Source of the DNA: Acinetobacter piscicola
GTDB taxonomy: Bacteria; Pseudomonadota; Gammaproteobacteria; Pseudomonadales; Moraxellaceae
Direction of reading: 5' to 3'
Length of the DNA: 64,000 nt
NCBI RefSeq assembly: GCF_015218165.1
Contig: NZ_CP048660.1
Location: 1-64,000, forward strand
The translations under genes and the position numbers were made by a program. A model generated the notes under the pieces. That model made no database searches. It was given only the letters and a program-made list of their open reading frames with translations, and had not been told where the DNA came from. Of the stretch, positions 13,401 through 53,059 are shown in pieces (positions within the stretch are counted from its first letter, which is position 1; each line of letters starts with the position of its first letter).

Positions 13401-13409
13401 GACTTAACA

Positions 13410-13962: not shown

Positions 13963-13965
13963 GGT

Positions 13966-29792: not shown

Positions 29793-30055
29793 GACAGCTT
29801 CTTTGATAGGTATTCTTTAAAACCATAATTGAATATAAAACAATATTTTATCTTGGCCTTCTCCCGTGAGGGAGATGGAACTTTATACGTGGATTTTTTT
29901 TCGAAAAGTGATCGCTTTTTAAAAATCACTATTATCATATAGATGTGACATGCGTTTTTGCTTTGTTTCAAGATAAGCTTTGTTAAAGATATTTAAACCA
30001 ACTTTTGAACCGTACCGGGTTTGTCGGAGAGTCAATATTCTGAGAGACTATCCCG

Positions 30056-31275: not shown

Positions 31276-31925
31276 CTTAAATAAAAAAGTCTCCGACAAA
31301 CCTGGTACGGTTCATTTTAAAGGAATACGTTCAACAACATTAATTCCTAAATCAGTTAAAGATTTAATTTTAAGGGGATTATTTGTAATGAGTTTTACAT
31401 TCTTTATTTTTAAATAATCTAACATAATGGTACACATATCATATTTACGAGCATCTGCTGGTAAATTTAATAATAAATTGGCGTCAAGAGTATCATGTCC
31501 TTGATCTTGAAGGGCATAAGCTCGAATTTTATTGGTTAGTCCTATGCCGCGACCTTCTTGGCGTAAGTATAAGATCACACCTTGACCTGCATCATTAATC
31601 ATTTTCATGGTTGAATGTAATTGGGGGCCACAATCACATTTGAGTGATCCAAAAGCGTCACCTGTTAAGCACTCTGAATGAATTCTAACGAGTACAGGTT
31701 GATTAGAAATAGTACCCATGCCTTTAGCAAGAGCGATATGTTCTTCACCAGTACTTTGGTCTTGAAACGCTATAATTTCAAAATCACCAAATGCAGTTGG
31801 TAGTTTTGCTTTTGAAACAAACTCTATAGCCATTTAATTATACCCCTGTATTTTAAGAATTTAGAAACTTTCAACTATTACTTTCCACCTAAAATAGTTC
31901 TCAGATAGTGAAATTAGTGTGAAAA

Positions 31926-32602: not shown

Positions 32603-33511
32603 ATGCAACGTGATGATTCTATTCATGAGCGTTTAGCTGACCGATTGGCCAATATTTTAACGAAGTTAAATATTGGACATCAGTTAAGTATTAAAGATCT
32701 AGCATCTGAGTTTGGAGTGAGTACACGTACTATTTCAAGAGATTTTGATCGTCTTAATACTTATTTGCCGTTGCTGCAGGATGCTGAAAATAAAAGATAT
32801 TACTTGGAGGCAAATTATTTAGGAAAAATTGCTCCGAAAGATATCCGTAATTTTGCGCAGCTCTCAGGAATTAGTCATTTGTATCCGTCATTGGATATGT
32901 CTTTTCTGCGTGAACTTTTAGATAGTCGAGCACAACAGATTTATTGTGCTAAAGGTTACTCTTTTGAAGATGCAAGTCAGTTTAAAGAGTTATTTAAGAT
33001 TGTTGGAAAAGCGATTCAAGAACATAGGCAAATTGGTTTTGTATATAAAGGGGAACCTAGGCTGGTTCAGCCTTATCGTTTGATTCATCATCATGGTAGT
33101 TGGTATCTAGCAGCGGTAAGAAAAAATCAACTACGTACTTATCGCATTTCACATATTCAACTTATGCACGCTACGCATGAATATCCTCAATTTATTCCAG
33201 ATCAAAATATTGTAAAAATTGTGGAAGATGATGACAGCATCTGGTTTGGACAGGATAAACAGGAAATCATTTTATCTATTGATAGTCAGGTTGCTTTTTA
33301 TTTTAAACAGAGATCAATATTACCCGAGCAGCAAATTGTAAGAGAGTTGGGGGATGGTGGTTTATTGGTCTCCTCAAAAATTAATCATGATATGCAACTG
33401 TTGCCTCTAATCCGGTTTTGGATTCCACATCTTAAAATTGTAAATCCAGAAAGATTACAAGATGAGATGGAAAAGGGACTAAAGGAATATTTAGAGCGTA
33501 GGAGTTCATAA
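32603..33511 (+). CDS. HTH-WYL domain transcriptional regulator
   Basis: A 302-aa regulator. An N-terminal winged HTH of the DeoR/HTH_11 type (SIKDLASEFGVSTRTISRDF, residues 30-50) is followed by a WYL domain (about 130-215) with the literal motif in HHHGSWYLAAV, RTYRISHI nearby, and a C-terminal extension (WCX). This is the architecture of BrxR/CapW-like repressors that control phage-defence islands, probably by sensing nucleic-acid or nucleotide ligands. It is the first gene of a co-directional array to 46926 and overlaps the next gene by one base (TAATG). Confidence 0.85.
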   Translation: MQRDDSIHERLADRLANILTKLNIGHQLSIKDLASEFGVSTRTISRDFDRLNTYLPLLQDAENKRYYLEANYLGKIAPKDIRNFAQLSGISHLYPSLDMSFLRELLDSRAQQIYCAKGYSFEDASQFKELFKIVGKAIQEHRQIGFVYKGEPRLVQPYRLIHHHGSWYLAAVRKNQLRTYRISHIQLMHATHEYPQFIPDQNIVKIVEDDDSIWFGQDKQEIILSIDSQVAFYFKQRSILPEQQIVRELGDGGLLVSSKINHDMQLLPLIRFWIPHLKIVNPERLQDEMEKGLKEYLERRSS

Positions 33512-33702
33512 TGGCGTGGAAGCCTAAACCAATGAAAATACAATGCCATCAATGTAAAAAAATAGGAATTTTTGCACCAAAAAGTGATGTGATTTTAGGT
33601 TTTCCACGATGTGTAAAATGTGGAATGGTAATGAAAATTGTAGGAAAAGTGACATTATTAGATTGGGTGATATATCCACTAACTTATATACGTAATATTT
33701 AG
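33511..33702 (+). CDS. Zinc-ribbon microprotein (63 aa)
   Basis: A 63-aa protein with two C-x2-C knuckles (CHQCKK and CVKCGM) spaced for a zinc ribbon. A hydrophobic C-terminus (VTLLDWVIYPLTYI) might touch the membrane. Coupled to the WYL gene by TAATG overlap and 19 bases before the large ATPase gene. Function is unknown; the tight packing suggests it belongs to the same system. Confidence 0.65.
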   Translation: MAWKPKPMKIQCHQCKKIGIFAPKSDVILGFPRCVKCGMVMKIVGKVTLLDWVIYPLTYIRNI

Positions 33703-33721
33703 AATATTTAGAGCATAAATA

Positions 33722-36700
33722 ATGGACTTAATAAAACAGCAAAATTTAAAAGATGATGTTGATATTTTTATTGGGGAATTATCTCAGACACAAGGATGGA
33801 GTAATACTCCAATTTTAAGCCTGAATAAACACCAATGGGATGAAAAATTTGAGCTTAATAATGGCAATGCTCGTTTTTTTCGTATTACTGAGCTTTCTGC
33901 TGAAGAGGAAGCAACATTAAGACAAGACCTTGAAAATGTTATCGCCTGTTTGGATCATCCTGATTATTGTTGGGTATACTATATTTCGGGTACATCGGAA
34001 GGGATTGAACTTTATCTAGGGGTGGTAAATAAGGTTCAAAAATCGGGTGTACATGAATATAGCGAACTGCTAACCAGTCAGTTAGAGGGTAATCTGACGG
34101 GTGTGCAATTGGAAAAAGTTAGCAGCGAAGATTTATCTGTAAAAATCATTCAACCATTACAGGAATCGATACATTTTGGGTTGTTGCATGGCGTACCCTC
34201 TCGCAGTATCGACCAGCAATCACAGACTGGACAGAACATTACACAGGGGATAGATCGTCTTGCTCGTGGTTTGTCAGGTGAGGTCTGGCAGCTTCTATTA
34301 GTGGCTGAGCCTGCACAGGAATTTGAGATTAATCAGCAAATTGATGAGTTATTACAGCTTTCATCTGATTTACATCCACACATTAAACACTCACAACAGT
34401 TGGGTTTTAATCAGGGCGAAAGTAATTCAAGTACCTTTGGGCGCAGTACCAGTCATGGTTTAACTCAAAACTCTGGAACAAGCTATTCTAAGACCGAGGG
34501 AACAGGTGATAGTGAAACACTTACCCGTCAAAAAGGAAAAAATACGGGAGGAGGTTCATCTGATGGTAAAAGTGGTAGTTCTTGGAGTAGTGGTACTTCA
34601 AAAAGTTGGGGAGATAATACCTCTGAATCTAAAGCTACAGGAACAAGTAGTAATGAATCTACAACATTAGGAAAAAATACAGGAAAATCTATTTCTAAAA
34701 CCGATTCAGATAATACTTCTACAACTCAAGGGACAAATACAGGTTCTTCTAAGTCAGATACCCTTGAATACGTGAATAAAAAGATTGAACGTGTACAAAG
34801 TCATATCAATGACAAATTGATTGAGCGTTTTGATTTAGGGCGTAGTAAAGGTATGTTCCGTACCGCAGTCTATTTAGCTGCACCAACACCAGTCGTTTAT
34901 AATCGTTTATCTCGTGCGATGGTGTCCGTTTTTCAGGGCAATCAATCGCATTTTTCTCCACTTAAAGTAACAGATTTTTCTTTACAAAAAAAACAAGTTC
35001 ATAATCTATTTTTAGTACAGCGTTTGCCACAGTCAAATATGAGTAATCAACTGGCATTGATTCACAGTATTCCACAGGCTAAACAGGTATTTTCCGCAGC
35101 AACATGGCTTAATGCTAATGAGCTTTCTTTATTGGCAGGTTTACCAAGTCGTGAAGTAGCAGGCATTAAATTACGCAAAAATGTTGATTTTGCAGTAAAT
35201 CCAGTGAATCCAAAAGATGGTTTTGATTTGGGTGTTGTGGTGCAGCATGGACGTAGACTTAAAGATAATGTTGTTCGTTTGGATAAAAAACTACTTAATC
35301 AGCATATTTTTATTTCAGGGGTTACAGGTGCAGGTAAAACCACCACTTGCCAACAGATTTTGATTAACTCAGGTTTACCTTTTTTGGTTATTGAGCCTGC
35401 TAAAACTGAATATCGTAGCCTATCGAAGCATCATCCTGAAATTGAATATTATACTTTGGGTAATGAAAAAGTTTCACCATTTCGTTTTAATCCATTTGAA
35501 TTATTACCGAATGAGCCTTTATCAGGTCATATTGACATGCTTAAAGCAACATTTGCCGCAGTATTTCCAATGGAAGCCTCAATGCCGTATTTGATTGAAG
35601 AAGCAATTGTTCGTAGTTATGAGCAGAAAGGCTGGGATATTCATTATGATGAAAACTATATTTATCCTGACCCTTGGAATTGTGGGGGACAAAGTTTTCC
35701 AATTTTTTCCGAAGTATTATTGACCTTAAAAGAAGTGATTAAATCGAAAAACTTTGGTCGTGATTTACAAGAAAAATATGAAGGCTCATTGATCTCTCGT
35801 CTGGATAATTTAACTACGGGCGCAAAAGGTCGGATGCTGAATACTCGCAATTCAATTGACATCAATGAGATACTTGATAAAAAAGTTGTGATTGAGTTAG
35901 AGGATTTACGAGATGAACAAGATAAATGTTTAATGATGGGCTTGCTGATTGGGCGTGTGGCTGAAGCAGTTAAACAACGTCATAAAAAAGACCATAGTTT
36001 TCAGCATTTAACTTTGTTGGAAGAAGCTCACCGTTTGTTATCTAAACCACACGGCGGGGAAGATAGTTCTAAACGTTTGGGTGTAGAGCTATTCGCTAAC
36101 CTTTTAGCCGAAGTCCGCAAATATGGTGAAGGTTTGATTATTGCTGATCAAATTCCGAATAAATTGACACCAGAAGTCTTAAAAAATACCAATACCAAAA
36201 TTATTCATCGACTATTCGCTGCTGATGATCGTCATGCGATTGGCGATACGATTGGTTTAGATGATGAACAAAAAGAGTTTTTAACCTTGCTTACTGCAGG
36301 TGAAGCGATTGTCTATAGTGCAGGTTGGCATGAAGCAGTCAGGGTACAAGTACACACGCCAAATGATACCAATGCACCTGAAATAGACGTTGATATCATT
36401 AAGCAACTTGGGCAACAACGCATGTTTGCACAAAGAGCAAGACTCTATCCCAATTTATCAGCGAGTGAAGACTGGAATGTGTTAGGGGTAGAAACTTTTA
36501 ATCAATATATTGTGGATGCAACCAAATTTTTGAATTTAATGATTCGATGGGTAATTAGCCCAAGTCAGGAATGGGTTAATCGTCTTGTAAGCTCTTTGGA
36601 TAATCTCAAAGGTAAGTATCCATCGATTACTCAAACTCAGGCGTTGAAAGATTTATTTAAAGATATTGCACCCGTGTCTAGAGATAAAAGTTATACGGAT

Positions 36701-36865
36701 GGTAAAACTGCTTATCAGTTATACGATATTTTATTTGGATTAATTAATAATAACCAGTTACCAGCAGATACAAAAAGCGGTGATAACTTTCCGATTGAAA
36801 GTGAGAATAAGCGTCCTCTTTGGAATGATATCTCACTTGTATTTAAACAAATTCAGTCAATTTAA
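33722..36865 (+). CDS. DUF87/HerA-like ATPase with Ser/Gly-rich insert (1047 aa)
   Basis: A large motor-type ATPase. The N-terminal 220 residues match nothing I know. Residues about 230-350 are a low-complexity Ser/Thr/Gly/Asn linker (GKSGSSWSSGTSKSWGDNTS). The FtsK/HerA-type domain follows: Walker A GVTGAGKTTT near 535, IEPAKTEYR, and Walker B TLLEEAHRLL near 765, then EVRKYGEGLIIADQIPNKL (sensor region). HerA-like ATPases translocate DNA or protein and are recurrent in defence islands (Dnd, SIR2-HerA). No nuclease domain is fused. It could equally be a peptide-handling motor for the small proteins encoded next. Confidence 0.8.
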   Translation: MDLIKQQNLKDDVDIFIGELSQTQGWSNTPILSLNKHQWDEKFELNNGNARFFRITELSAEEEATLRQDLENVIACLDHPDYCWVYYISGTSEGIELYLGVVNKVQKSGVHEYSELLTSQLEGNLTGVQLEKVSSEDLSVKIIQPLQESIHFGLLHGVPSRSIDQQSQTGQNITQGIDRLARGLSGEVWQLLLVAEPAQEFEINQQIDELLQLSSDLHPHIKHSQQLGFNQGESNSSTFGRSTSHGLTQNSGTSYSKTEGTGDSETLTRQKGKNTGGGSSDGKSGSSWSSGTSKSWGDNTSESKATGTSSNESTTLGKNTGKSISKTDSDNTSTTQGTNTGSSKSDTLEYVNKKIERVQSHINDKLIERFDLGRSKGMFRTAVYLAAPTPVVYNRLSRAMVSVFQGNQSHFSPLKVTDFSLQKKQVHNLFLVQRLPQSNMSNQLALIHSIPQAKQVFSAATWLNANELSLLAGLPSREVAGIKLRKNVDFAVNPVNPKDGFDLGVVVQHGRRLKDNVVRLDKKLLNQHIFISGVTGAGKTTTCQQILINSGLPFLVIEPAKTEYRSLSKHHPEIEYYTLGNEKVSPFRFNPFELLPNEPLSGHIDMLKATFAAVFPMEASMPYLIEEAIVRSYEQKGWDIHYDENYIYPDPWNCGGQSFPIFSEVLLTLKEVIKSKNFGRDLQEKYEGSLISRLDNLTTGAKGRMLNTRNSIDINEILDKKVVIELEDLRDEQDKCLMMGLLIGRVAEAVKQRHKKDHSFQHLTLLEEAHRLLSKPHGGEDSSKRLGVELFANLLAEVRKYGEGLIIADQIPNKLTPEVLKNTNTKIIHRLFAADDRHAIGDTIGLDDEQKEFLTLLTAGEAIVYSAGWHEAVRVQVHTPNDTNAPEIDVDIIKQLGQQRMFAQRARLYPNLSASEDWNVLGVETFNQYIVDATKFLNLMIRWVISPSQEWVNRLVSSLDNLKGKYPSITQTQALKDLFKDIAPVSRDKSYTDGKTAYQLYDILFGLINNNQLPADTKSGDNFPIESENKRPLWNDISLVFKQIQSI

Positions 36866-36879
36866 GTGGAGTAAATGCT

Positions 36880-37116
36880 ATGGGATTTTGGAGTAGTATT
36901 GGTTCAGCTATTGGTTCTTCATCTAATCAAGTAAAAGAAGAAGACCCAACCTATAAAAAATATGCCGCTGAGATGAGTAATTTTAAACTTGAAGATAAAA
37001 ATGTAAAAACAGCTTTAAGTACTAAAAAACAAGAGTTTCAGCTTCATCAGATGCAGGATGAGTTGGACGATATAGATAGTATTGATGACGTAAAGAAACA
37101 TTTTCAGGAGAAATAA
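36880..37116 (+). CDS. Small protein with MGFWSS leader, paralogue A (78 aa)
   Basis: A 78-aa protein. The N-terminus MGFWSSIGSAIGSSS is Gly/Ser-rich and weakly hydrophobic. The remaining 60 residues are charged and helical (EEDPTYKKYAAEMSNFKLED ... QMQDELDDIDSIDDVKKHF). The first 12 residues are almost identical to those of the next gene, which points to a shared targeting or recognition signal. TGGAG site 8 bases before ATG. No known family. Confidence 0.65.
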   Translation: MGFWSSIGSAIGSSSNQVKEEDPTYKKYAAEMSNFKLEDKNVKTALSTKKQEFQLHQMQDELDDIDSIDDVKKHFQEK

Positions 37117-37117
37117 A

Positions 37118-37798
37118 ATGGGATTTTGGAGCAGTGTAGGTTCAGCAATTAGTAGTGCATGTTCTTCGATTGGTTCAGCAATTGGCAGTGCTTGTTCCAG
37201 TATTATGGGAGGAATTAGTAGTGTGATTAGTAATGCGGGTTCACTGTTTTCAGCCTTAGCCGTTGTGATTCCAATTACGGGAGCTTTAGGTAAGGTTGTT
37301 GCGGCCCTTGATATTATTGGCAAGATTCTGGGTGTACAAGAACCTGACGAAGATACTGATGATATTGGTGATCGTGCGATACAGGCGCAGGAAGCAGGGA
37401 TTAGTCCTGAAAATTATGCGACTTATCAGGAGTATTCAGCGGCAATCAAGAGTTTTGAACTTGACCCAAAACGTTCTGCTGAAATTAGTGACCTTGACAA
37501 AAAACTTGCAGGGATTGCAACGCAGGCATGGGCGTATGAAGAAAAATTTGGTGTAGATGGTGTTGGATTATTAACCAAAACAGTAGAATCGCCTGATTAT
37601 TTTACAGGCGATCGTTTAGCAAGTTTTCTTGATAAAGTTGAAAATATATCTGATGTTGTTCAATACTTTGATGGCAAACTTTCATCAAATGAACGTAATG
37701 CAGTGGAAGCGAAATTGGTTGAAGCAGAAAAGACAATCAATCCAGAAAAAACCAATGCAGACATTTACAAGGAACTGGACACCTATCGTCATGAGTAA
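37118..37798 (+). CDS. MGFWSS-leader protein, paralogue B, with glycine-zipper-like N-terminus
   Basis: A 226-aa protein. Residues 1-70 form a small-residue-rich hydrophobic stretch with internal repeats (SVGSAISSACSS, SIGSAIGSACSS) followed by ALAVVIPITGALGKVVAAL. This could insert into a membrane in the manner of glycine-zipper or pore-forming peptides. The rest is acidic, soluble and helical, ending in a region that overlaps the next gene by 8 bases. AGGAGA site. No homologous family recognised. A membrane-active effector is one possibility, a structural scaffold another. Confidence 0.65.
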   Translation: MGFWSSVGSAISSACSSIGSAIGSACSSIMGGISSVISNAGSLFSALAVVIPITGALGKVVAALDIIGKILGVQEPDEDTDDIGDRAIQAQEAGISPENYATYQEYSAAIKSFELDPKRSAEISDLDKKLAGIATQAWAYEEKFGVDGVGLLTKTVESPDYFTGDRLASFLDKVENISDVVQYFDGKLSSNERNAVEAKLVEAEKTINPEKTNADIYKELDTYRHE

Positions 37799-38723
37799 AC
37801 AAAAAGTAACACCTAATGATGACTTACAACATTACTTATGTATTTTGGCATTTAAAGATCATCTGGTCGCATACCAAAGTATGCAATCAGAACCTTGGCA
37901 GTTAATTCAAATTAAAGGAAGTCAGCAATATCTACACAAGGATAAGGTGAGTAGCTTAAAAGATGTATTAAGCGATATTTCTGCTAACTTGAATTTAAAA
38001 GATGGCTTGGCAAAAGTAAAAGTGAGTCTGCTTTATCAACAGGGGCAAGATAAACTATTTATTGATGCTGTGAAAAACTTACAGGAATATCACTGTAAGA
38101 CATGGCAAATACTCAATTGGGATAGTATCTATCAATATGCTTTACAGATATTGAATATCGAACAGGTATTTTTTGATACTCAAACAGTAGATCACCCATG
38201 GGTACAAGATCATTTCTTGCCATTAGTTTGGCATGAAAACAGTATTGAGCATCAACAGCAAGCTTTAGCTGCTTTACGTCAGGAAAAAAATCAGATTGAA
38301 GAGCAGCTTGCATTAATGCGCTCTGATGCAGAACAAGCCTTGGCTCAACAAGTGGATAAACTTGAAAATGATAAGCAACAGTTACAACAACAGATTGTTG
38401 ATGCAAGAGTGCAATTGCAAAAATTGCAGCAGCCTGACTTAGAAAGCCTTTTGGTTTTTCTACCTGTCATTTTTAAAGATTTCTGGAATGTGGTACGTCC
38501 TGATGAACTGGCGATGATTGTTGGGGTACTTAATACGCCATCAGTGCCATCACCATACCATTCACCAAGCCTAAGCACAGTTCAACAAAAGAAACGTCAA
38601 TATTTAGCACTGTCAGAAGAAAGTCAGGGCAAAATTTTGGATTTATGTCGAGAGTTGGTACATAACCATAATGCGTTACAAGTACATCAGGAATTTAAAG
38701 CTTTAGTCGGGGCGTTGGATTAA
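37791..38723 (+). CDS. Coiled-coil protein of unknown function (310 aa)
   Basis: I chose ATG 37791 (MSKQKVTPNDD), which overlaps the end of the previous gene, rather than longer frames reaching into it. Residues 1-150 form a globular part (YLCILAFKDHLVAYQSMQSE). Residues about 165-220 are a long coiled coil (LAALRQEKNQIEEQLALMRS). The C-terminal 90 residues are helical. No J-domain HPD motif is present. It ends 2 bases before the GrpE-like gene. It may be an adaptor for the Hsp70-like proteins, by position only. Confidence 0.65.
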   Translation: MSKQKVTPNDDLQHYLCILAFKDHLVAYQSMQSEPWQLIQIKGSQQYLHKDKVSSLKDVLSDISANLNLKDGLAKVKVSLLYQQGQDKLFIDAVKNLQEYHCKTWQILNWDSIYQYALQILNIEQVFFDTQTVDHPWVQDHFLPLVWHENSIEHQQQALAALRQEKNQIEEQLALMRSDAEQALAQQVDKLENDKQQLQQQIVDARVQLQKLQQPDLESLLVFLPVIFKDFWNVVRPDELAMIVGVLNTPSVPSPYHSPSLSTVQQKKRQYLALSEESQGKILDLCRELVHNHNALQVHQEFKALVGALD

Positions 38724-38725
38724 TT

Positions 38726-39616
38726 ATGGCAAAAGATGACAACATGCCTACTAAAAAAGAAATCATTCAATTTCTTGAACGTGTAGAACAATTAAACGAG
38801 GACGACAACGTGTTTAAAGAAAAATTGGGTGGCTTATTACGCAAAATTGTTGGTAAAACAGCAACCCAAAATGATACTTCGCCTATACGACATGATACAA
38901 AATCGGAAAATCATTTATTATCAAACTCAAAACTGACAGAGCTTGAACAGCGTATCCATGCTATACAGCAGGATAATGATAACTTAGGTCAAAAAATAAC
39001 ACAGCTTAAACATACTAATAAGAAATTAGAGGAAGAAAATATGGGGATTTTGGATTTATTTAAGCGAAAAGAACAAGATGTTAGTCATTTACAGCAGCAG
39101 ATTAGTGGATTAAGTCAAGACAACCAAAAGCTTAAACAAAATAATGAGTCTTTAAGTACTGAAAATCAAGATTTAAATAAAAAACTTGGTTCATTTAACT
39201 GGGCAAATTCACTTAAATCAGAATTTAATTTTTTAAAACAAGTACAGTCACATCCAGAGCTTGCCAGTATTTTATTGCCAAATGGTGATGATAATGTCCT
39301 GCAATTAATTGCGATTGCATCTCAATGGAATAACGTGTTACGAGTTTGGGATGCTTTAGCAACACAAATTAAAAATACACAACAAGCAATTTCTGTAACA
39401 GAACAGCAGATTATTGAGCATGGTTTGGCTTTATTTAATCTGACTCTACAAAGTAATCAGGCAACCTTGAAAAATCCAGAGTTTGGTGAAAGTTATGATT
39501 ATGATATTCATCAAAAAGTATCAGGTAGTGGTGGAAGTATTGAGCAAGTATTACTCGCAGGTTTATATAATGCCGCAGGCGAAAATGTAAGAGCTGCAAT
39601 AGTAACTACACGTTAA
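38726..39616 (+). CDS. Coiled-coil protein with GrpE-like C-terminus (296 aa)
   Basis: A long coiled coil (about 70-160: KITQLKHTNKKLEEENMGI, LQQQISGLSQDNQKLKQNNE) is followed by a helical domain and a C-terminal segment, GSIEQVLLAGLYNAAGENV then RAAIVTTR. That tail resembles the beta-wing of the exchange factor GrpE (G-x-V-xx-VLQKGY ... RVLRPAxV). GrpE has the same overall plan of coiled coil then small beta domain, and its partner is Hsp70, two of which follow here. I therefore infer a dedicated exchange factor. The similarity is short and judged by eye. Confidence 0.5.
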   Translation: MAKDDNMPTKKEIIQFLERVEQLNEDDNVFKEKLGGLLRKIVGKTATQNDTSPIRHDTKSENHLLSNSKLTELEQRIHAIQQDNDNLGQKITQLKHTNKKLEEENMGILDLFKRKEQDVSHLQQQISGLSQDNQKLKQNNESLSTENQDLNKKLGSFNWANSLKSEFNFLKQVQSHPELASILLPNGDDNVLQLIAIASQWNNVLRVWDALATQIKNTQQAISVTEQQIIEHGLALFNLTLQSNQATLKNPEFGESYDYDIHQKVSGSGGSIEQVLLAGLYNAAGENVRAAIVTTR

Positions 39617-39667
39617 TTTTAGAAATGAATAAATTCCCCTTATATAGCAAAGAGACAAGGAGGAATA

Positions 39668-39703
39668 ATGATGAATAGAAATAGCCTAAGAACAGGGAAG
39701 TAA
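39668..39703 (+). CDS. Leader mini-ORF upstream of Hsp70-like gene (11 aa)
   Basis: A near-perfect ribosome site (AAGGAGGAATA) precedes ATG-ATG-AAT and an 11-codon frame (MMNRNSLRTGK). Its TAA shares one base with the ATG of the Hsp70-like gene (TAATG). It may raise translation of the large protein by coupling. It is too short to be judged by composition. Confidence 0.4.
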   Translation: MMNRNSLRTGK

Positions 39704-42525
39704 TGAGTCAATCCACCACGTATGATGTTTATTTACTTAAAGCCAAGCAACAGGTATTACAAAAACTTATAGTAAATGACATAAATAATAAGCTTGCTGA
39801 AACAGAAAAAGCATTAGAGAGTTATTTTAAAACACAACGTTGGTGGACGATTAATAATGGTGAAGTGATCTTAGATAATCAAACAGGTCTTTTATGGCAA
39901 GGTAATCCGAAAGGAACTCAATATAAATATGATCAGCAAGATGCTGCGAGTATGAATATTGGTCATATTTTAGGTTTATTAAATTGGAAACTCCCTACAG
40001 CATTACAACTAGAGAATCTTGTTAAAGGAGAGCCAAAATTTCCACTAAAAAAAGGAGAATTTTTTGAAATAAATAACTGGTGGGCATGGCTTACATCAGA
40101 TAAAAAAGTAGCAAAGTTAAAAGAGAAAAATATTGGCTTTGGTCAGTTTTTTGAGAAAAGAACTAGAGAGCCAAACCCTAAGGCATTTACTGCTTACTCT
40201 CGCTGGTCACCAAGCTCAAGAGAAGCATATAATGAATTTCAAATTGCTAAAGTCATTGCAGTCAATGCTTCATTTCAAGATAGTTCTTATATTGATCGAA
40301 TTAACACATTTTTAGAGATTGGTTTGGACTTTAAACCCTTTAGTAATCAAGAAGATTCAGATTATAAAGCATTCTTAATGACTCTATCAAAATATAAATT
40401 ATTGTTATCATTAAACTCAAAAGAGCAATTAGATATTATTACATCGTGGAAAAATATTGATTATTTTTCTGTTCGCTTACCTGTCATAGATGCTGCAGTT
40501 TTTACTGATAATCATAAAGGTTTATGGGAATTCTACGCTCCAGAATCTCAACAGGATAAATTTAATAAAGTTCAGTCCGAAACCTCTGTACGTGGTCGAA
40601 ATCCTGCTTTAGATATTCAATATGCACCCGTTGCAATTGACTTTGGTACAAGTAGTACGGTCGTTGCCATTCGTCAAAATGGGCGCGATGAATTATTACG
40701 TATTGGAATACAGGGAAAAGACTTAAATAAAGCGATTAGTGCAGAGCAATTTGAAAACCCAACGATTTTAGAGTTTTTAAACCTTAATGAATTTCAAACT
40801 GCATGGCAAAGTGAAGCCTATCGTCCTTTGGTTAATTGGGATCATGTACATTGTTCGCATGAAGCCAAAGCCAGTTTAAATAATAATAAGGAAGCAGATA
40901 GCAAGGTTATTTCAAGTATATTCCTACGTTTAAAACAATGGGCATTACGTGATGCTCAACAAACCAGAGTTGTGATTACTGACCAACGAGGCACAGAATA
41001 TACGGTTCAACCATTAACGGAATATAACCCTGTTAAAGGTCAAGCGATTCAAATCAATCAAAACTACCCTGAACTTGATCCAATTGAACTCTATGCTTGG
41101 TTTTTGGGTATGAATATCAATTGGCGTGGTCGTGGCATATTTCTTGATTACTACATGACTTTTCCAGTCGCATATCCAATTGAAGTAAAAGATAAAATTC
41201 TGGCTTCTTTCCGCCGTGGTTTAATGCGTAGCTTGCCAGAATCATTAATTGCTGATGAGCAGTTTAACCTGTTTAGTGTTCGGGAATGGGCTTCTGAACC
41301 TGCCGCCTATGCAGCCGCAGCTTTGGAAAAACTCAATATTGAACCGACTGAACAAGGCGTTGCTTATGCTGTATTTGACTTTGGTGGAGGTACAACCGAT
41401 TTTGATTATGGTATTTATCGAGAACCGAATGAGCAGGAAGAAGACTTATACGATCATGTAATTGAACACTTTGGTGCATCGGGTGACAAATTTTTAGGCG
41501 GTGAAAACTTACTGGAAAATCTTGCTTATATCGTCTTTAAATATAATCAGGAAATTTGCCGTAAACAAAAAGTAAGTTTTACAAAGCCACTAGATGCCGA
41601 AAAATTTATAGGTCATGAACAACTCATTGATGATAGTCAAATGGCGTATACCAATACGTCTTTATTGATGGCAGCACTACGTCCATTTTTAGAAAAAGGT
41701 CAATTTGCTGATGGTTTTGCAGGAGCTTTGGATATTAAGTTGCTCAACCGACAAAATGAGGTTGTAAATTGTCAATTTACGGTCAAACAAGATGAATTAT
41801 TATCTTATCTAAAATGCCGTATCTATCAAGGTTTCGTTAATTTCTTTGTAGAGCTAAAACAGGCATTTACAACACAGCATCAAGCTTTACCTAAAGTTAT
41901 TCATATTTTGCTAGCAGGAAATGCTAGTCGTTCCAAATTGGTGAAAGAATTATTAGTGGGCATTGAGAAAAAAGATCAAACCCAAACCACACGATTAAAT
42001 CTAAGCACAATTTTTGGTCAGGATATTCCTGAATTTAAAATTCATTATCCACTAGATGCTGACCTTAAACATCATGATGTCATTACTGCAAAAACAGGTG
42101 TGGCATTGGGTTTATTACGCCTTTGCCCTGGAGAGGGCTTAAAAGTCATTAACCATGCCAAAACAAATGATGATGCAAATAGTCCATTCCAGTTTTATGT
42201 TGGTCGTCAAAAACGTGGGGTATTTGAAGTCATGATAAAACGTGGCGATGCGTACCATCAATGGCAGCAGATTGGTGCTGTGAGTGAAGATGGGATTTTC
42301 CTATTACTTTATAGTTCTTTGGCTCAAGCCTTAACGGATGAAGGAATGAAACGGGGAGCAACAGGTCTATTTGATCAGCGTATCCGTTTTGCTGGCAACA
42401 CCGCAGGGCAAAAAGTTTTCGCTCGTATTCTCGCTCCAAGTGAGATTGAATTGTGTTCAGCAACTGATCTGGACGAAATACAAGTAACGGGTGGTAATAA
42501 TTTACAGCAAATTAAATTGTCATAG
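39703..42525 (+). CDS. Hsp70-like ATPase with DUF1566-like N-terminus, paralogue 1 (940 aa)
   Basis: Residues about 45-110 resemble the DUF1566 (Lcl-type) fold: WTINNGEVILDNQTGLLWQG and LNWKLPTALQLENL. From about residue 308 there is an actin/Hsp70 ATPase: phosphate-1 VAIDFGTSSTVVAIR, phosphate-2 VFDFGGGTTDFDYG near 560, and the adenosine motif ILLAGNASRSKLVKEL near 740. The C-terminal 140 residues do not look like a classical Hsp70 substrate-binding domain. It should be an ATP-driven clamp or assembly factor with its own client type. It is followed by a clear paralogue. SrfB-like virulence proteins are a distant alternative comparison. Confidence 0.8.
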   Translation: MSQSTTYDVYLLKAKQQVLQKLIVNDINNKLAETEKALESYFKTQRWWTINNGEVILDNQTGLLWQGNPKGTQYKYDQQDAASMNIGHILGLLNWKLPTALQLENLVKGEPKFPLKKGEFFEINNWWAWLTSDKKVAKLKEKNIGFGQFFEKRTREPNPKAFTAYSRWSPSSREAYNEFQIAKVIAVNASFQDSSYIDRINTFLEIGLDFKPFSNQEDSDYKAFLMTLSKYKLLLSLNSKEQLDIITSWKNIDYFSVRLPVIDAAVFTDNHKGLWEFYAPESQQDKFNKVQSETSVRGRNPALDIQYAPVAIDFGTSSTVVAIRQNGRDELLRIGIQGKDLNKAISAEQFENPTILEFLNLNEFQTAWQSEAYRPLVNWDHVHCSHEAKASLNNNKEADSKVISSIFLRLKQWALRDAQQTRVVITDQRGTEYTVQPLTEYNPVKGQAIQINQNYPELDPIELYAWFLGMNINWRGRGIFLDYYMTFPVAYPIEVKDKILASFRRGLMRSLPESLIADEQFNLFSVREWASEPAAYAAAALEKLNIEPTEQGVAYAVFDFGGGTTDFDYGIYREPNEQEEDLYDHVIEHFGASGDKFLGGENLLENLAYIVFKYNQEICRKQKVSFTKPLDAEKFIGHEQLIDDSQMAYTNTSLLMAALRPFLEKGQFADGFAGALDIKLLNRQNEVVNCQFTVKQDELLSYLKCRIYQGFVNFFVELKQAFTTQHQALPKVIHILLAGNASRSKLVKELLVGIEKKDQTQTTRLNLSTIFGQDIPEFKIHYPLDADLKHHDVITAKTGVALGLLRLCPGEGLKVINHAKTNDDANSPFQFYVGRQKRGVFEVMIKRGDAYHQWQQIGAVSEDGIFLLLYSSLAQALTDEGMKRGATGLFDQRIRFAGNTAGQKVFARILAPSEIELCSATDLDEIQVTGGNNLQQIKLS

Positions 42526-42585
42526 GGACATAACCTGTCCCAACCAAACATCAAAATTGAGAAATAGTTAAATCGGGGAACATAA

Positions 42586-45516
42586 ATGAGTCAAAGTTTT
42601 GAAACTTTTGTACCAACTTTAAAACATCAAAAGCTGCTTGCTACAGCAGAAGCAATCGCACTTGAAAATGATAAGGTAGAAGATGCGAAAACGTTGAAAC
42701 AAGCCACCGAGGCAGCAGTAGCTTATTTTGAGAAATATCGTTATTGGTGGATTAATGATGGGGAAATGATCTTTGATAGAGAAACAGGGTTGTTATGGCA
42801 GGGGAATCCAAGTAATAAAAAATATTATTATTGTCATCAGGAGCAAGCTAACCAAGATTTAGCACCTTTAAAATTAGGTGGGTTAAGTGATTGGCGTGTG
42901 CCTTTAGATGCTGAATTATGGAAGATTACACAGACAAAGGAATTTCCATTAAAACGAGGGCAACGTCTTAGATTGTTAGATTACCACTTTTGGTTAACTC
43001 AAGATAATAAGGTATTGTATTTGGATGAAAGTAATGAATCTAATAAACGTAATGATTCATGGAGCGATGCAAGAGTTTTAGCTGTAAATTCATTTTTTAA
43101 ACAAAAACCAACAACGCTTATAGCACTAAAAGCTTTTTCTGAGAAAAAATGGAAAATCCGTCCGCATTTTATTACTGTGCTCCAAACAGAGATAGATCAA
43201 TGTATTGCTGATTCTAAGTTTAGTCATGATATTTACCAAACATTTGTAAATAATAAAGAATATTGGTTAAAAAATCCATTTGCTATTCCATCAGAATTAG
43301 AACAGTTGAGGAAATTTCTAACGACTTATGTAAATGAAGAACTCAAAGAATTTTATGAAAATTTAGTTGTATTAGAAAAGATATCTAAAAAGAAATATGA
43401 CTATAAACCACAAGTTGATCCAATTGCAGTCTGGCAAAATATTGACTATATCAGCACACGCTTACCAAAAATTGATGCTCTAAAATTTACTGATGTTGAA
43501 CAAGGTATGTGGGAATTTTTTGTTCCTAAAGCTTTACAGGGTAAATATACAAAAGTTCAATCCAAACAATTCTGCCGTGATCGTAACCCTGTTTTGGATA
43601 TTCGGGAAGCTAATGTCGCAATTGATTTTGGTACAAGTAGTACAGTTGTTGCCATTCGTAAAAATGGCAAAGATGAATTATTGCGTATTGGGATGCAGGA
43701 AAAAGATTTTGCCAAAGACGTCATTACTGACCAACAATATGAAAACCCGACTGTTTTAGAATTTTTAGATTTACAAAACTTTTTGAATGAATGGCAAAGC
43801 GAAAGTTACCGTCCATTGGTTGATTGGGATAATATCCATTGTTCACATGAGGCAAGAGCCGCATTACGCAACAATAATAGTAATACCAAAGTGGTGAGTA
43901 GTATTTTTGCTCGCTTAAAACAATGGGCATTGCGAAATGAGCAAACGGCAAAAGTTCGTTTACGTGACCAACAAGAGTATGAATATCAACTACAACCTTT
44001 AACTGAATATAACCCAGTCAAAGGTCAGGCAATTCAAATCGGTAAAGACTACCCACAACTTGACCCAATCGAAGTTTATGCGTGGTTTTTGGGAATGACC
44101 ATTAACTGGCGAGAAAGAGGTATATTCCTCAACTATTATTTAACTTTTCCTGTGAAATATTCAAATGAGGTGAAAGCCCGAATATTGGCAGCATTTCGCC
44201 GAGGACTACAACGTAGTTTGCCTGAATCATTGATTTATGATGAACGCTTTAATGAGTTTAGTGTAGAAGAGTTGGCTTCTGAACCTGCTGCTTTTGCTGC
44301 TGCAGCATTAGAGCGTTTGGAAATTGAACCTGATGATGGTGGTGTTTCCTATGCTGTATTTGACTTTGGTGGTGGCACAACCGATTTTGACTATGGCTTC
44401 TATCGCAATCCAAATGACGAAGAGCACGATGAGGGATGGGATCATGTCATTGAACATTTTGGTTCATCTGGTGATCAATTTTTGGGTGGTGAAAATTTAC
44501 TGGAAAACTTGGCATATCTAGTATTTCAAGCCAACGGTAGTGAATGTAATAAAAAGAAAATTGCATTTACCAAACCATTGGATGCAGAAAATTTTGCAGG
44601 TTCAGAACTACTCATTGCACAAACACAGGCTGCTTATACCAATACCACGTTAATGATGTCTAAACTAAGACCATTATGGGAAGCTGGAAAAATTGATCTT
44701 GACTCTAAAGGGACAGAAACGTTTAAACTCATTAACAAAGATGGGCAAACTGTAGATTGTGAAATTGCAATAAAACAGGATGAATTGATTAAGTTTCTTG
44801 AAAATCGTATTCGTCAGGGTTTAAAAGACTTCTTTATAGCTATGAATGTTGCATTTAAACAGCAGCATCAAAAGCTACCTGAATTGATTCATATTCTTTT
44901 AGCTGGAAATTCAAGTCGATCACGAATTGTGTTAGGGCTACTTGGGCGTTTAGATGATGAGAAATCTAAAGCCTTATATCAATTGTTGTTGACAGATTTA
45001 GCAGAGATTTTTGAGGATTTGCCTAATCTGGAAATTCATTTACCTTTAGATGCTGATCCTAAAAATGCTTATGCACCAACCGCTAAAACAGGTGTAGCGT
45101 TGGGGCTATTACGTTTGTGTCCTGGGGAAACACTAAAAGTCGTCAACCATGCTGCGGAGGATAATACCGATAGTCCATTCCAATACTTTATTGGTGCATT
45201 TAGACGAGATACTTTGCAAGTGGCAATTCATCGTGGACAGACTTATCAGGAGTGGGCGGAACTCGGTAAGCCCCTCAATGGTGTGTTGGTTATGGGCTAT
45301 ACAACTTCATCTAGTGCAGCACTTGAAAATCAGGTTAAACGTGGTGATAAAGGTGTGTTTGAACAAAACTTACGATTATCGGGTAATATCCAAGGTCATA
45401 AGGTATTTGCTAAAGTACTTTCACCAAATGAAATTGAAATCTGTACCGCGCAGAGTTTGGATGATGTTCATCGCCAGCAAACCAATAATAACCGTATCAT
45501 TCAATTAAGCATTTAA
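42586..45516 (+). CDS. Hsp70-like ATPase with DUF1566-like N-terminus, paralogue 2 (976 aa)
   Basis: Same architecture as the preceding gene. The N-terminal segment reads YRYWWINDGEMIFDRETGLL and LSDWRVPLDAELW. The ATPase has VAIDFGTSSTVVAIR near 345, VFDFGGGTTDFDYG and LLAGNSSRSRIVLGLL. The ATPase half is very similar to paralogue 1 while residues 110-330 have diverged. This suggests duplication followed by specialisation of the client or partner surface, perhaps acting as a heterodimer. GGGGAA site before ATG. Confidence 0.8.
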   Translation: MSQSFETFVPTLKHQKLLATAEAIALENDKVEDAKTLKQATEAAVAYFEKYRYWWINDGEMIFDRETGLLWQGNPSNKKYYYCHQEQANQDLAPLKLGGLSDWRVPLDAELWKITQTKEFPLKRGQRLRLLDYHFWLTQDNKVLYLDESNESNKRNDSWSDARVLAVNSFFKQKPTTLIALKAFSEKKWKIRPHFITVLQTEIDQCIADSKFSHDIYQTFVNNKEYWLKNPFAIPSELEQLRKFLTTYVNEELKEFYENLVVLEKISKKKYDYKPQVDPIAVWQNIDYISTRLPKIDALKFTDVEQGMWEFFVPKALQGKYTKVQSKQFCRDRNPVLDIREANVAIDFGTSSTVVAIRKNGKDELLRIGMQEKDFAKDVITDQQYENPTVLEFLDLQNFLNEWQSESYRPLVDWDNIHCSHEARAALRNNNSNTKVVSSIFARLKQWALRNEQTAKVRLRDQQEYEYQLQPLTEYNPVKGQAIQIGKDYPQLDPIEVYAWFLGMTINWRERGIFLNYYLTFPVKYSNEVKARILAAFRRGLQRSLPESLIYDERFNEFSVEELASEPAAFAAAALERLEIEPDDGGVSYAVFDFGGGTTDFDYGFYRNPNDEEHDEGWDHVIEHFGSSGDQFLGGENLLENLAYLVFQANGSECNKKKIAFTKPLDAENFAGSELLIAQTQAAYTNTTLMMSKLRPLWEAGKIDLDSKGTETFKLINKDGQTVDCEIAIKQDELIKFLENRIRQGLKDFFIAMNVAFKQQHQKLPELIHILLAGNSSRSRIVLGLLGRLDDEKSKALYQLLLTDLAEIFEDLPNLEIHLPLDADPKNAYAPTAKTGVALGLLRLCPGETLKVVNHAAEDNTDSPFQYFIGAFRRDTLQVAIHRGQTYQEWAELGKPLNGVLVMGYTTSSSAALENQVKRGDKGVFEQNLRLSGNIQGHKVFAKVLSPNEIEICTAQSLDDVHRQQTNNNRIIQLSI

Positions 45517-45583
45517 TTCAGTGGATTGAGGTTGTTTATTTTAGGGTAAGCAACCTATTTAGTTTTTTAGATTGGGAAGAAAA

Positions 45584-46246
45584 ATGCTTTCGGATATCCA
45601 GCAAACCTTTAAACAAAACCGTGAAAACTTTAATGAAGATTTTCGTTTACGGATTCATCGTTCATTAAGCTGGTTACAGCGAGCAGAACAGGCCAAACAA
45701 GAACAAGACTTTGATTCACAGTTTATTTTTCTGTGGATTGGTTTTAATGCTGTTTATGCGAAAGATTTACGTGCAGATTTACGCAGTGCGGATAAGGGGG
45801 CATTTGTACAATTTATCTATCGGATTTGCTATTTAGATAAAGAACAGAAAATTTATTATTCAGTTTGGAATACCTTCTCAGGTAGCATCCGTATTTTGTT
45901 AAATAATCAATTTACCTTTCAGCCTTTTTGGGATTATCACAATGGTTTAATCACAGAACAGATTTGGGTCGAAAGTTTTGAACGAAACAAGAAAAAGGCA
46001 TTAAGTGCTTTAAGCCAAAAAGATACTCCTGAAATACTCATTGCTGTTTTTAATCATCTATATACTTTACGTAATCAAATTATTCATGGCGGAGCAACTT
46101 TTAATAGCACAGTGAATCGTGCTCAACTTAAAGATGCCTGCAATATTCTAGCGACATTAATTCCTGAAATGTTGAAAGTGATGTTAAATCATTCTCATGA
46201 TAAAACATGGGGTAAGCCATTTTATCCTGTAGTAAAGATTGCTTAG
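45584..46246 (+). CDS. HEPN-like protein (220 aa)
   Basis: An all-helical protein. The C-terminal third has LRNQIIHGGATFN, an R-x4-H motif in the place typical of HEPN domains, many of which are RNases in toxin and defence systems. The N-terminal region (RSLSWLQRAEQAKQEQDFDSQFIFLWIGFNA split by helices) also matches HEPN-like helical hairpins. I chose ATG 45584 (GGGAAG site) over the TTG at 45572. RNase activity would need the R and H; many HEPN proteins are non-catalytic. Confidence 0.6.
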   Translation: MLSDIQQTFKQNRENFNEDFRLRIHRSLSWLQRAEQAKQEQDFDSQFIFLWIGFNAVYAKDLRADLRSADKGAFVQFIYRICYLDKEQKIYYSVWNTFSGSIRILLNNQFTFQPFWDYHNGLITEQIWVESFERNKKKALSALSQKDTPEILIAVFNHLYTLRNQIIHGGATFNSTVNRAQLKDACNILATLIPEMLKVMLNHSHDKTWGKPFYPVVKIA

Positions 46247-46335
46247 GTATAAATATCAAATGATATAAAATATTTAATTTTATTAACTTAATAATATTTT
46301 AAAAAAATTGGAATGTGGTCTATTAGGGTGATCTT

Positions 46336-46926
46336 ATGAATCAAAAGATATCAAATGAAAATTTATTGGTTGGCTTAAAAAAGCAACTTCAAAAGGTTTT
46401 ATTTAATCAACAGCAATTATTACTAAATTTAGAGCAGAATGATTTAGTCCCACAGCATAATGCCGAGAAGCCTCGTGTATTTGATAACAAGACAGTACCT
46501 GAAATGAAAAATGTATTACAAGGGGAATATACAAAACTCGAAAATTTCGAAGTTGTATTAGCTGTTGTTGGTACGATGAAAGCAGGTAAGTCTACAACTA
46601 TTAATGCGATTGTTGGTCGAGAGGTATTACCAAATAGAAACCGTCCTATGACTGCGTTACCTACACTCATAGCACATAAAAAAGATCAAAAAGAACCGAT
46701 TCTTACTTGTGATGTAAAGGACATTAATAAATATATTGCAAACCTTAAAAAAATTACACTATCTGAATTTCAAACAGATGAGAGAGTAACAAGTTATAAC
46801 GAGATTGTCGAACTAATCCAAAATATACAACAAGGTTATAAATTTAAAAAACAATATAAAGGCGAGGAAGCAATTTTTAGCTTCTTGGCAAACTTAAATG
46901 ATCTAGTTCGTTTATCTAGAATTTGA
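46336..46926 (+). pseudogene. Dynamin-like GTPase, 3' truncated by IS3 end
   Basis: 196 residues remain of a dynamin-family GTPase. The P-loop lies in VVGTMKAGKSTTIN and the switch-I threonine in NRNRPMTALPT. Bacterial dynamin-like proteins are usually 500-800 aa, so most is missing. The frame ends LSRI-stop where the IS3 left end supplies TGA (46924-46926). No continuation is visible beyond the IS fragment. In an intact locus this would remodel membranes; in defence systems such GTPases mediate membrane protection or abortive infection. AGGGTG site present. Confidence 0.75.
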
Positions 46927-46991
46927 ACCGTACCGGGTTTGTCGGAGAGTCAATATTCTGAGAGACTATCCTGATGACAAAATTAAAATAT
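46924..46991 (+). mobile_element. IS3-family left-end fragment (68 bp)
   Basis: Matches the first 68 bp of the copies at 30006 and 54923 with one mismatch, then diverges abruptly before OrfA can continue. Only the left end survives, so a deletion removed the rest together with the 3' part of the GTPase gene. Confidence 0.85.
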
Positions 46992-47258: not shown

Positions 47259-48470
47259 ATGAGTCTTACGGAAACACAAATACGAAAGTCATATCCAAAG
47301 GAAAAAGTTTACTTTTTAGCTGACGATGATGGTTTAAGTTTAAAAGTCTATCCGAATGGAAGAAAATCTTGGAGTTATCGTTACTCAGTTCCAGAAACGG
47401 GTAAAAGACCACGAGTAACTCTAGGTACATATCCAGAGATGAATCTCAAAGAAGCTAGAGTGGCCAGAGATTCCTATAAGGCAACTAAATTTTCTACACA
47501 AAATTTAGTTCAGGAAAAAATTAAAACTTTTAAAGTTGTTTGTGAAGAATGGTTAGAGTTTAAAAAAAATAATTCATTTAAAGACCAACCACGGGGTGGT
47601 GTAATCCAATTGGCGAATACATGTTTAATTAATGACATTTATCCACTTATTGGTGATAAATGTTTTGATAAAATTAAAAGAACTGATTTAGTTACGGTTA
47701 TTAAAAAAATTGAAAATAGGGGAGTTAAGGAACCTGTAAAAAAAGCATATAGCTATTTAAACCAAATCTATGATTTTGCAGTTGCAATGGGATACTGTGA
47801 ATATAATCAAGCTTATGGTCTCAATAAAATATTATTAAAAGGAAAATTAAAGAAAAATTATCCCTATTTAAAAGATGAAGAAATTTCTAATTTTATTCTT
47901 AGAGTAACTCAATTAAATACAAATCCAATTATAAAAAAAGCGATACTATTTAAATTATATACTGGAGTCAGGGGGGCAGAGTTATTATCTGCAGAACCTC
48001 ATCATTTTGATTTTGACAACAAACTTTGGAAAATACCTGCTTTACATATCAAGCAATATCGTCGAAAAGTGATAGCAGGTTATAATATTCCAGATTTTTT
48101 AGTTCCATTATCATCGCAAGCGGTAAGTATTATTAGATCTGCACTAGAGTGGTCACAAGGAGATCGTTATGTTTTTGCTAGCCCAAAAATTAAAGATAAA
48201 CCATTGCATTTTAACACAATAAATTCAACCATCCGTAAGATGGGATATAAAACAGATGAGTTATCCTCACATGGCTTAAGATCAACATTCAGTACTATTT
48301 TAAATAATTCAGGCTTATTTCAAGACAACTGGATTGAAGCTCAACTTTCACATGTAGATAAAAATAAAACTCGCGCTAGTTATAATCACGCAGATTATAT
48401 TCAACAAAGAGCTGACATGATGCAATGGTGGGGTGACTATTTAGAAAATAAATCCAAATCTAGTTTATAG
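47259..48470 (+). CDS. int: P4-type tyrosine integrase
   Basis: A 403-aa site-specific recombinase. An N-terminal DUF4102 arm-binding domain (LSLKVYPNGRKSWSYRY, VTLGTYPEMNLKEAR) precedes the SAM-like core-binding and the catalytic domain. Catalytic residues are Arg in TGVRGAELL, the H-x-x-R of SSHGLRSTF, the His of AQLSHVDKNK, and Tyr in RASYNHADY. Such integrases mobilise genomic islands, usually at tRNA genes, though no tRNA is visible here. It lies beside the truncated GTPase and ahead of hipA module 2, so it may have brought in the defence-like array or the hip module. Confidence 0.9.
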   Translation: MSLTETQIRKSYPKEKVYFLADDDGLSLKVYPNGRKSWSYRYSVPETGKRPRVTLGTYPEMNLKEARVARDSYKATKFSTQNLVQEKIKTFKVVCEEWLEFKKNNSFKDQPRGGVIQLANTCLINDIYPLIGDKCFDKIKRTDLVTVIKKIENRGVKEPVKKAYSYLNQIYDFAVAMGYCEYNQAYGLNKILLKGKLKKNYPYLKDEEISNFILRVTQLNTNPIIKKAILFKLYTGVRGAELLSAEPHHFDFDNKLWKIPALHIKQYRRKVIAGYNIPDFLVPLSSQAVSIIRSALEWSQGDRYVFASPKIKDKPLHFNTINSTIRKMGYKTDELSSHGLRSTFSTILNNSGLFQDNWIEAQLSHVDKNKTRASYNHADYIQQRADMMQWWGDYLENKSKSSL

Positions 48471-53055: not shown

Positions 53056-53059
53056 GGAT

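Follow-up and report, generated by a model that had tools for sequence, protein, structure and literature searches.

A conserved five-gene operon with HerA-like and Hsp70-like ATPases in Acinetobacter piscicola, a candidate modular defence system

We analyzed a stretch of 64,000 nucleotides from Acinetobacter piscicola (host genome 4.28 Mb), referred to as the window, and coordinates given without a locus name are positions in it. Ten co-directional open reading frames (ORFs), with intergenic gaps of -8 to +210 bp, are located within 32603-46926, upstream of an integrase gene. They contain a conserved five-gene operon encoding a HerA-like ATPase, a protein that begins with the residues MGFWSS (the MGFWSS protein), a coiled-coil protein, a GrpE-like protein and Hsp70-like ATPases, while the genes for a WYL regulator, a HEPN protein and a short MGFWSS protein (mini-MGFWSS) are optional. 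Judged from its sequence and surroundings, the operon may be a mobile anti-phage (or anti-plasmid) defence system, gated by a chaperone-type receptor and with a membrane-acting output, a reading that we hold with evenly divided confidence. An original prediction for this region had described ten tightly spaced co-directional genes with an integrase directly beyond, and these ORFs were recovered. The ORFs of the leading WYL regulator, the HerA-like ATPase, the twin Hsp70-like genes and the HEPN gene were likewise confirmed, and the predicted MGFWSS pair corresponds to ORFs of 78 and 226 aa. The coiled-coil gene (37791-38723) had not been named. Domains were assigned by a Pfam scan (E<=0.1) and a PADLOC scan, each of ten window proteins, with the 78-aa mini-MGFWSS ORF left out of the PADLOC scan. 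The genes are:

32603..33511, + strand: WYL-domain transcription regulator (HTH_11, WYL and WCX); accessory; Pfam WYL 1e-12, PADLOC WYL 2.9e-27
33722..36865, + strand: HerA/FtsK-superfamily ATPase, 1047 aa, whose Ser/Thr/Gly-rich insertion varies in length; core; DUF87 2.6e-5
36880..37116, + strand: mini-MGFWSS, 78 aa, MGFWSS start and short charged tail; accessory; from ORF reading
37118..37798, + strand: MGFWSS protein, 226 aa, with a hydrophobic Gly/Ala/Ser-rich N-terminus and a helical C-terminal domain; core; alignment A2
37791..38723, + strand: coiled-coil protein, about 310 aa, whose C-terminal block is conserved; core of the five-gene form; family hidden Markov model (HMM) 7.7e-79
38726..39616, + strand: GrpE-like protein, coiled coil with a GrpE-head-like C-terminal block; core; alignment A4
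39703..42525, + strand: Hsp70-like ATPase 'a' (H70a), 940 aa, with an inserted variable Lcl/DUF1566 domain; core
42586..45516, + strand: Hsp70-like ATPase 'b' (H70b), 976 aa, sharing 52% identity with 'a' but differing in the inserted domain; core paralogue
45584..46246 (TTG start at 45572), + strand: HEPN-domain protein with an R-x4-H motif (RNQIIH); accessory; HEPN_RiboL-PSP 3.1e-5

A scan of a genome-contig collection with a single protein gave no relative. An alignment of 21 Hsp70-like proteins, used on this collection, returned 63 loci, and 69 loci were read in all, i.e., these 63, five further genome stretches and the window. The window and the 63 loci served to build profiles of the core families. 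HerA and MGFWSS genes were found together in 38 of the 69 loci, and 29 of these 38 (the window and 28 relatives) had all five core genes. The original prediction had treated the whole gene set as one unit; this holds for the five core genes, which recur in 29 of the 69 loci, but not for HEPN, WYL and dynamin, which are not conserved. It had also named independent scattering of the genes as the outcome that would speak against it. The core genes do not scatter: in 29/29 five-gene loci they lie on a single strand in the order HerA, MGFWSS (one to three copies), coiled coil, GrpE-like and Hsp70-like (one or more copies).

The coiled-coil gene was present in 29 of the 35 loci holding HerA, MGFWSS and Hsp70-like genes. 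Six of the 38 HerA-MGFWSS loci had GrpE-like and Hsp70-like genes without a coiled-coil match, namely L058 (a Campylobacteraceae metagenome-assembled genome), L060 (Heliorestis), L061 (an uncultured Ruminococcus), L070 (Heliophilum), L134 (from the class of the window) and L139 (from its phylum). Four of these six place the Hsp70-like and GrpE-like genes upstream of HerA, and L058 and L139 have the usual order. No Hsp70-like gene was found in 3/38. In L054 (Acinetobacter sp. CFCC 10889, 9989-12723) the Hsp70-like gene is in two pieces, and the remaining core genes are long ORFs.

Because the 63 loci had been obtained through the Hsp70-like gene, a separate search was made with the MGFWSS profile alone. 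It matched 3 of 369 genomes of the class and 4 of 398 genomes of the phylum, the window's own genome being counted in both. HerA adjoins MGFWSS in all five other genomes found in this way. Three of them offered enough contig to read the neighbourhood; two carry Hsp70-like and GrpE-like genes and one is a CoCoNuT-type locus.

The Hsp70-like proteins carry an inserted domain that was compared in 116 homologues longer than 850 aa, from 120 listed, together with the two window proteins. The insert was delimited by alignment columns, as a regular-expression cut had segmented only 84 of the 118 proteins. Groups around H70a and H70b were formed from proteins sharing 90% identity or more between the insert's end and the C-terminus, and insert types were joined at 50%. 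Median identity in the H70b group (18 proteins) was 0.95 after the insert and 0.86 over the first ~65 residues but dropped to 0.43 within the insert, where five types were distinguished. For the H70a group (14 proteins) the corresponding values were 0.96, 0.85 and 0.73, with three types. Shuffled inserts gave an identity background of 0.23-0.24. Single pairs come close to this background in the insert: H70b and the homologue P0050 are 0.98 identical in the ATPase/C-terminal part and 0.30 in the insert, H70a and P0018 are 0.97 identical in the backbone and 0.29 in the insert, and H70a and P0019 0.94 and 0.27. The insert thus appears to behave like a swapped recognition domain, though not in every group. 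The inserts of the window proteins match PF07603 (Lcl_C, DUF1566), a family that we take to have a C-type-lectin-like fold. The predicted fusion of DUF1566 to Hsp70 is in line with the annotation of DUF1566/Lcl_C on 44 of the 120 homologues listed (1122 found), but the window matches themselves (28.6 and 29.5 bits) are under the Pfam cut-off of 34.9.

The window Hsp70-like proteins have the Hsp70/actin-like ATPase fold. In a structural model of middling quality (predicted local distance difference test, pLDDT, 66.8) residues 315-817 match the ATPase domains of DnaK, and MreB nearly as well. C-terminal residues up to 940 aligned with a peptide-binding substrate-binding domain and helical lid in some rows only, with high root mean square deviation. 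PF00012 was absent from both window Hsp70-like proteins in the Pfam scan (E<=0.1), and the three sites listed for it in the host genome all lie on a different contig. A sequence search of the PDB with the Hsp70-like alignment gave nothing at 0.01. Among the matches listed, the closest named homologues were from Acinetobacter species. For the protein predicted to be GrpE-like, a resemblance to GrpE was found over 62 columns of the head by profile-profile comparison of alignment A4 (hhalign), but the match was weak (E 0.0067, probability 5.7%; MGFWSS control 0.13), and GrpE was not among the best 25 of 38 Pfam families for A4. We treat the GrpE-like identity as a lead only.

In the HerA family the Walker A (GVTGAGKTT) and Walker B (LLEEAH) motifs are conserved (alignment A3). 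The 226-aa MGFWSS protein had no Pfam match. Its AlphaFold2 model is all-helical (pLDDT 81.7, with low confidence for residues 1-41), and a fold search returned no PDB structure at E<=0.001. The N-terminal part of the family is hydrophobic, with a median grand average of hydropathy (GRAVY) of 0.86 for residues 1-75 vs. -0.54 for the rest. A transmembrane-like hydropathy threshold was passed by 24 of 36 MGFWSS proteins, and the peak was within the first 110 residues in 36/36. The same threshold was passed by 1/32 HerA, 6/38 coiled-coil, 0/40 GrpE-like, 1/65 Hsp70-like and 0/4 HEPN proteins. From these profiles the MGFWSS protein is a candidate membrane effector. Four of the five-gene loci (window 36880-37116, L028 7536-7769, L047 7025-7234 and L069 7149-7349) contain a short MGFWSS ORF of 67-78 aa next to the full-length one. 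HEPN is present as well in three of the four (Fisher p 0.004 over 29 loci, for a link noticed post hoc), and the fourth, L028, ends shortly past the core. Another short ORF of this kind, in L070, was set aside because it did not resemble these.

The original prediction had proposed to check for co-occurrence in defence islands, and the flanks of the relatives proved rich in defence families compared to a control. We scanned 141 of the 153 flank ORFs of 250-1300 aa in HerA loci against PADLOC (E<=1e-20) in two sets; the 12 ORFs left out are all eight of L051, a near-duplicate of L021, and four of L061. The flanks gave 96 PADLOC families in 72 proteins and 108 in 69, whereas the control gave 7 families in 103 proteins (103 of 116 ORFs, 16 genome stretches), although the control is gammaproteobacterial only, and these are counts of families with overlapping models, which exaggerate because many models describe one protein. 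BrxL, Hhe, GajB, type IIG and type I restriction families were among the matches listed, the type I restriction models with three members each. hsdR, hsdM and hsdS are found downstream of the core, at 150 bp or less in L056 and L064 and at about 1.1 kb in L067.

The distribution is patchy. Within the genus 3 of 175 genomes have the Hsp70-like gene, the window's own included; one copy is split by stop codons and one matches residues 788-930 only. No Hsp70-like gene was found in 50,697 phage records, and three weak matches of about 80 residues were found in viral contigs. One of 72,556 plasmid records gave a partial match of 30.6%. This distant relative, on the Helicobacter plasmid NZ_AP024820.1 (38973-40463), is annotated as two hypothetical proteins. 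HerA was matched in 136 plasmid records, one of them covering at least 80% of the query, and in two phage records. A DNA-similarity search with the Enterobacter HerA gene for relatives in E. coli gave no match.

The accessory genes differ from the core in their conservation. Relatives of the WYL protein were found in L011 and L024 (BLAST) and in L020 (phmmer), and the protein probably regulates expression of the operon. The HEPN gene was found near the core in three relatives. Its match to HEPN_RiboL-PSP is 24.4 bits with a cut-off of 28.4, and the R-x4-6-H catalytic motif (RNQIIH and equivalents) is present in 4/4 members of the family, which makes the protein a candidate RNase effector. Beyond HEPN the window holds:

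46336..46926, + strand: 5' stump of a CrfC/dynamin-like GTPase gene, 196 codons; pseudogene; CrfC model 6.1e-45
46922..46991, + strand: insertion-sequence left end, 70 bp, with 99% identity to that of the copies at 30004 and 54923; from own-genome search
47259..48470, + strand: tyrosine integrase adjoining the operon; Phage_integrase 2e-17, Arm-DNA-bind_3 3.4e-17

The predicted dynamin-like GTPase does match the CrfC model, but at positions 16-195 of 742 only. The terminal 70 bp of the stump are the left end of an insertion sequence, further copies of which are located at 30004-31314 and 54923-56231. Since the stump ends in this sequence, the gene is taken to have been cut there. Besides the window itself no HerA-holding locus gave a BLAST match to the stump, and one weak match was found in L071, which has the dynamin-type arrangement. 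We rejected dynamin as a component of the operon on account of the truncation and the missing matches. The integrase is possibly a gene of a mobile element. Two ORFs downstream (48757-50061 and 51790-53115) look HipA-like in sequence, and the first adjoins a small helix-turn-helix-like ORF.

The core is modular: HerA-MGFWSS recombines with CoCoNuT genes, and the Hsp70/GrpE/coiled-coil part with dynamin-like GTPases, as read from the gene families of the loci. The first arrangement was found in genome G363:

L135 (G363:C20) 1567-14468 and L142 890-9569: CoCoNuT-type locus with HerA-MGFWSS

In G363 HerA-MGFWSS precedes a VWA gene (1.5e-17), a VWA-like gene without Pfam match, and genes for a PP2C phosphatase, a kinase and a superfamily 1 helicase; a DUF2357 protein with one cold-shock domain is encoded further downstream. 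The ORFs in the places of the GTPase and HEPN genes both lacked a Pfam match. A sigma-54 activator with a sub-threshold CARF match is encoded upstream of HerA-MGFWSS. The second arrangement was found in HerA-less stretches, beside dynamin-like GTPases of families c6 and c10 in L011, L012, L018, L071 and L073 (the last without a GrpE-like match), and beside those of family c33 in L042, L050 and L053, of which L042 also has MGFWSS and coiled-coil genes. For c6, c10 and c33 a single member of each family was verified to carry Dynamin_N, and for a c11 member the match was below the cut-off. Separate proteins of family c31 are encoded in L012, L018 and L073, and the one scanned has an Lcl_C domain. 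Another five loci, L029, L031, L032, L038 and L055, are of the Iodobacter/Janthinobacterium type and have a HerA-less Hsp70-like gene, a partly shared neighbourhood and a conserved insert.

The third extension of Type III-A CoCoNuTs comprises a small helical protein and an EccE3-HerA ATPase whose insertion varies in length, with a function given as unknown (PMC11090510). The loci L135 and L142 hold the HerA and MGFWSS families of the window in such a setting, which suggests that the small helical protein of CoCoNuTs belongs to the MGFWSS family. As G363 fits this extension, we take the HerA-MGFWSS pair to be in print, unnamed, an assignment based on arrangement alone. A union of the pair with an Hsp70/GrpE-like set was not seen in the section of PMC11090510 on this extension. 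The window operon differs in that Hsp70-like, GrpE-like and coiled-coil genes accompany the pair, without recognized McrB/McrC, VWA, phosphatase or kinase. Neither a McrC-type DUF2357 domain nor a McrB-type GTPase was found among the ten window proteins (Pfam, E<=0.1), and the Hsp70 family HMM gave no match to the L142 DUF2357 protein with E relaxed to 10. We rejected the window operon as a CoCoNuT on these two grounds.

The original prediction held that the set fits no named defence system, and the PADLOC profiles indeed do not claim the unit. Strong matches were limited to WYL (with Cas3c at 1.4e-11 on the same protein) and HerA/FtsK models, followed by DndH at 3.8e-5 on the ATPase and DruC at 4.6e-5 on the coiled-coil protein. 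Genes specific to BREX, Dnd, DISARM, Zorya, Druantia and other PADLOC systems were not found at strong scores in the ten window proteins. The ATPase belongs to the same superfamily as those of the HerA anti-phage families (HerA_antiphage, PADLOC HerA and MADS mad8), with matches of 2.1e-20 to mad8 and 2.4e-19 to PADLOC HerA, whereas the other scanned window proteins lack strong matches to their partner genes. The mad1-mad8 set of MADS was not present; besides mad8 on HerA, only mad1 (0.0057, on WYL) and mad8 (0.0034, on the dynamin stump) were matched. Dynamin-like GTPases of the alternative arrangement in L012 match the PADLOC model LeoA of Eleos (2.8e-18 for c6, and 2.2e-13), but the partners differ, and the only dynamin in the window is a stump (LeoA E 0.011), with no intact GTPase pair. 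In a minority of the GAP1-N2 double-GTPase systems (PMC7159879, Kaur et al., 2020), which are predicted conflict systems, HSP70 and GrpE, at times with a further HSP70-domain protein, are linked to other switches. These systems are built on a DO-GTPase and GAP1, with the theme predominantly in actinobacteria and firmicutes, and by that description would stand apart from the window operon. A chaperone takes part in phage sensing also in bNACHT25, but there it is the DnaJ of the host (PMC12169576), whereas the window has dedicated Hsp70-like genes with a variable insert. No description of this gene set was recognized in the open-licence PMC papers covered, which does not prove that none exists.

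The conserved core, the abundance of defence families in the flanks, the patchy occurrence and the conserved ATPase with its rapidly changing domain fit an immune system better than a housekeeping function. In such a system the Hsp70-like protein would be the receptor, with the variable domain binding a structure of the invader, and would be switched by its nucleotide state, set together with the GrpE-like partner. The coiled-coil protein would couple the receptor to the HerA-type hexameric ATPase, which would deploy or assemble MGFWSS in the cell membrane and so halt the infected cell. Mini-MGFWSS may restrain its larger relative, HEPN could be an optional second, RNA-cutting output, and WYL probably controls expression. 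The chaperone-gated membrane-active system of the original prediction survives here in altered form, with MGFWSS as the membrane candidate; dynamin is only an alternative partner in other loci.

Several observations weigh against a membrane-acting defence operon with a variable receptor, in addition to the overlap of models and the choice of control in the flank scan. The count of core loci is biased, as the Hsp70-like gene was the means of finding 63 of them, and these loci, together with the window, also supplied the profiles. In 31 of the 69 loci there is an Hsp70-like gene and no HerA in the available stretch; some contigs are short, but at least ten HerA-less loci have at least 9 kb before the Hsp70-like gene (L011, L012, L018, L029, L031, L032, L038, L043, L045 and L055). 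One insert type is common to 12 of the 14 proteins of the H70a group. The first 59 residues of H70a are also divergent from P0018 (0.52) and P0019 (0.47). Among pairs from fetched loci with at least 75% backbone identity, the insert was lower by more than 0.25 in only 4 of 20. The five HerA-less Iodobacter/Janthinobacterium-type loci (ten pairs) had no excess, with 0.87-0.96 in the insert vs. 0.88-0.97 in the rest, and the three enterobacterial loci (three pairs) had a mildly faster insert (0.81-0.87 vs. 0.96). The N-terminus of MGFWSS is modelled at low confidence and without a structural relative, and 12 of 36 MGFWSS proteins are below the hydropathy threshold. The GrpE identity is weak. Finally, none of the seven neighbours of the operon in the window itself had a PADLOC match at 1e-8.

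The operon might also defend by acting on nucleic acid, with a HerA hexamer that translocates or blocks invading DNA, MGFWSS as a membrane anchor or adaptor, HEPN, where present, cutting RNA and the Hsp70-like proteins sensing or regulating. HerA/FtsK relatives are DNA pumps. The HerA profile matches HerA-type PDB chains (best E 8.2e-11), the window protein matches the model of the DNA-translocating ATPase CedD at 2.6e-24, with 85.8 bits against a cut-off of 600, and the HEPN motif is kept in 4/4 members. Among the core genes of the window Pfam recognized none with a nuclease domain, and the score with the curated NCBIfam model HerA_antiphage was 47.2 bits against a cut-off of 800, and we regard this alternative as rather doubtful.

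A role in secretion or contact-dependent antagonism, where a VirB4/FtsK-like ATPase exports MGFWSS outward or into neighbouring cells while the chaperones keep the cargo soluble, is unlikely. The CoCoNuT authors suggest conjugation or secretion for a like ATPase and its small helical partner (PMC11090510). However, Pfam recognized no secretion partner among the ten window proteins, only one HerA family member passes the transmembrane-like threshold, and the flanks are rich in defence genes. It is equally improbable that the operon is a stress or protein-quality system in which the Hsp70-like and GrpE-like proteins remodel aggregates with HerA as an unfoldase-like partner; the Hsp70 ATPase fold would agree with it, but the presence in so few genomes of the genus, the variable insert and the defence-rich flanks argue against it. 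A chance pile-up of unrelated island genes would account for the inconstant neighbours (WYL, HEPN, dynamin and the integrase) and stands for the dynamin stump, but is contradicted for the core by five genes in one order in 28 relatives and can practically be dismissed.

If the operon is a chaperone-gated defence system, it adds a conserved modular defence family in proteobacteria and, otherwise arranged, in firmicutes, and it provides a set of partners for the unnamed pair of HerA and small helical protein in CoCoNuTs. We tentatively propose, as a possibility on the less probable side, that Hsp70-type ATPases serve here as dedicated immune receptors, with a conserved motor, an exchangeable lectin-like domain and side-by-side paralogues, that can be plugged onto either HerA and a membrane-seeking protein or dynamin-like modules. 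This receptor class would be unlike the NLR-type STAND proteins, CRISPR or CBASS, and Hsp70-type ATPases would act in it as variable immune receptors and not as folding helpers. Near-identical proteins with different recognition domains would then be a natural experiment on what is recognized.

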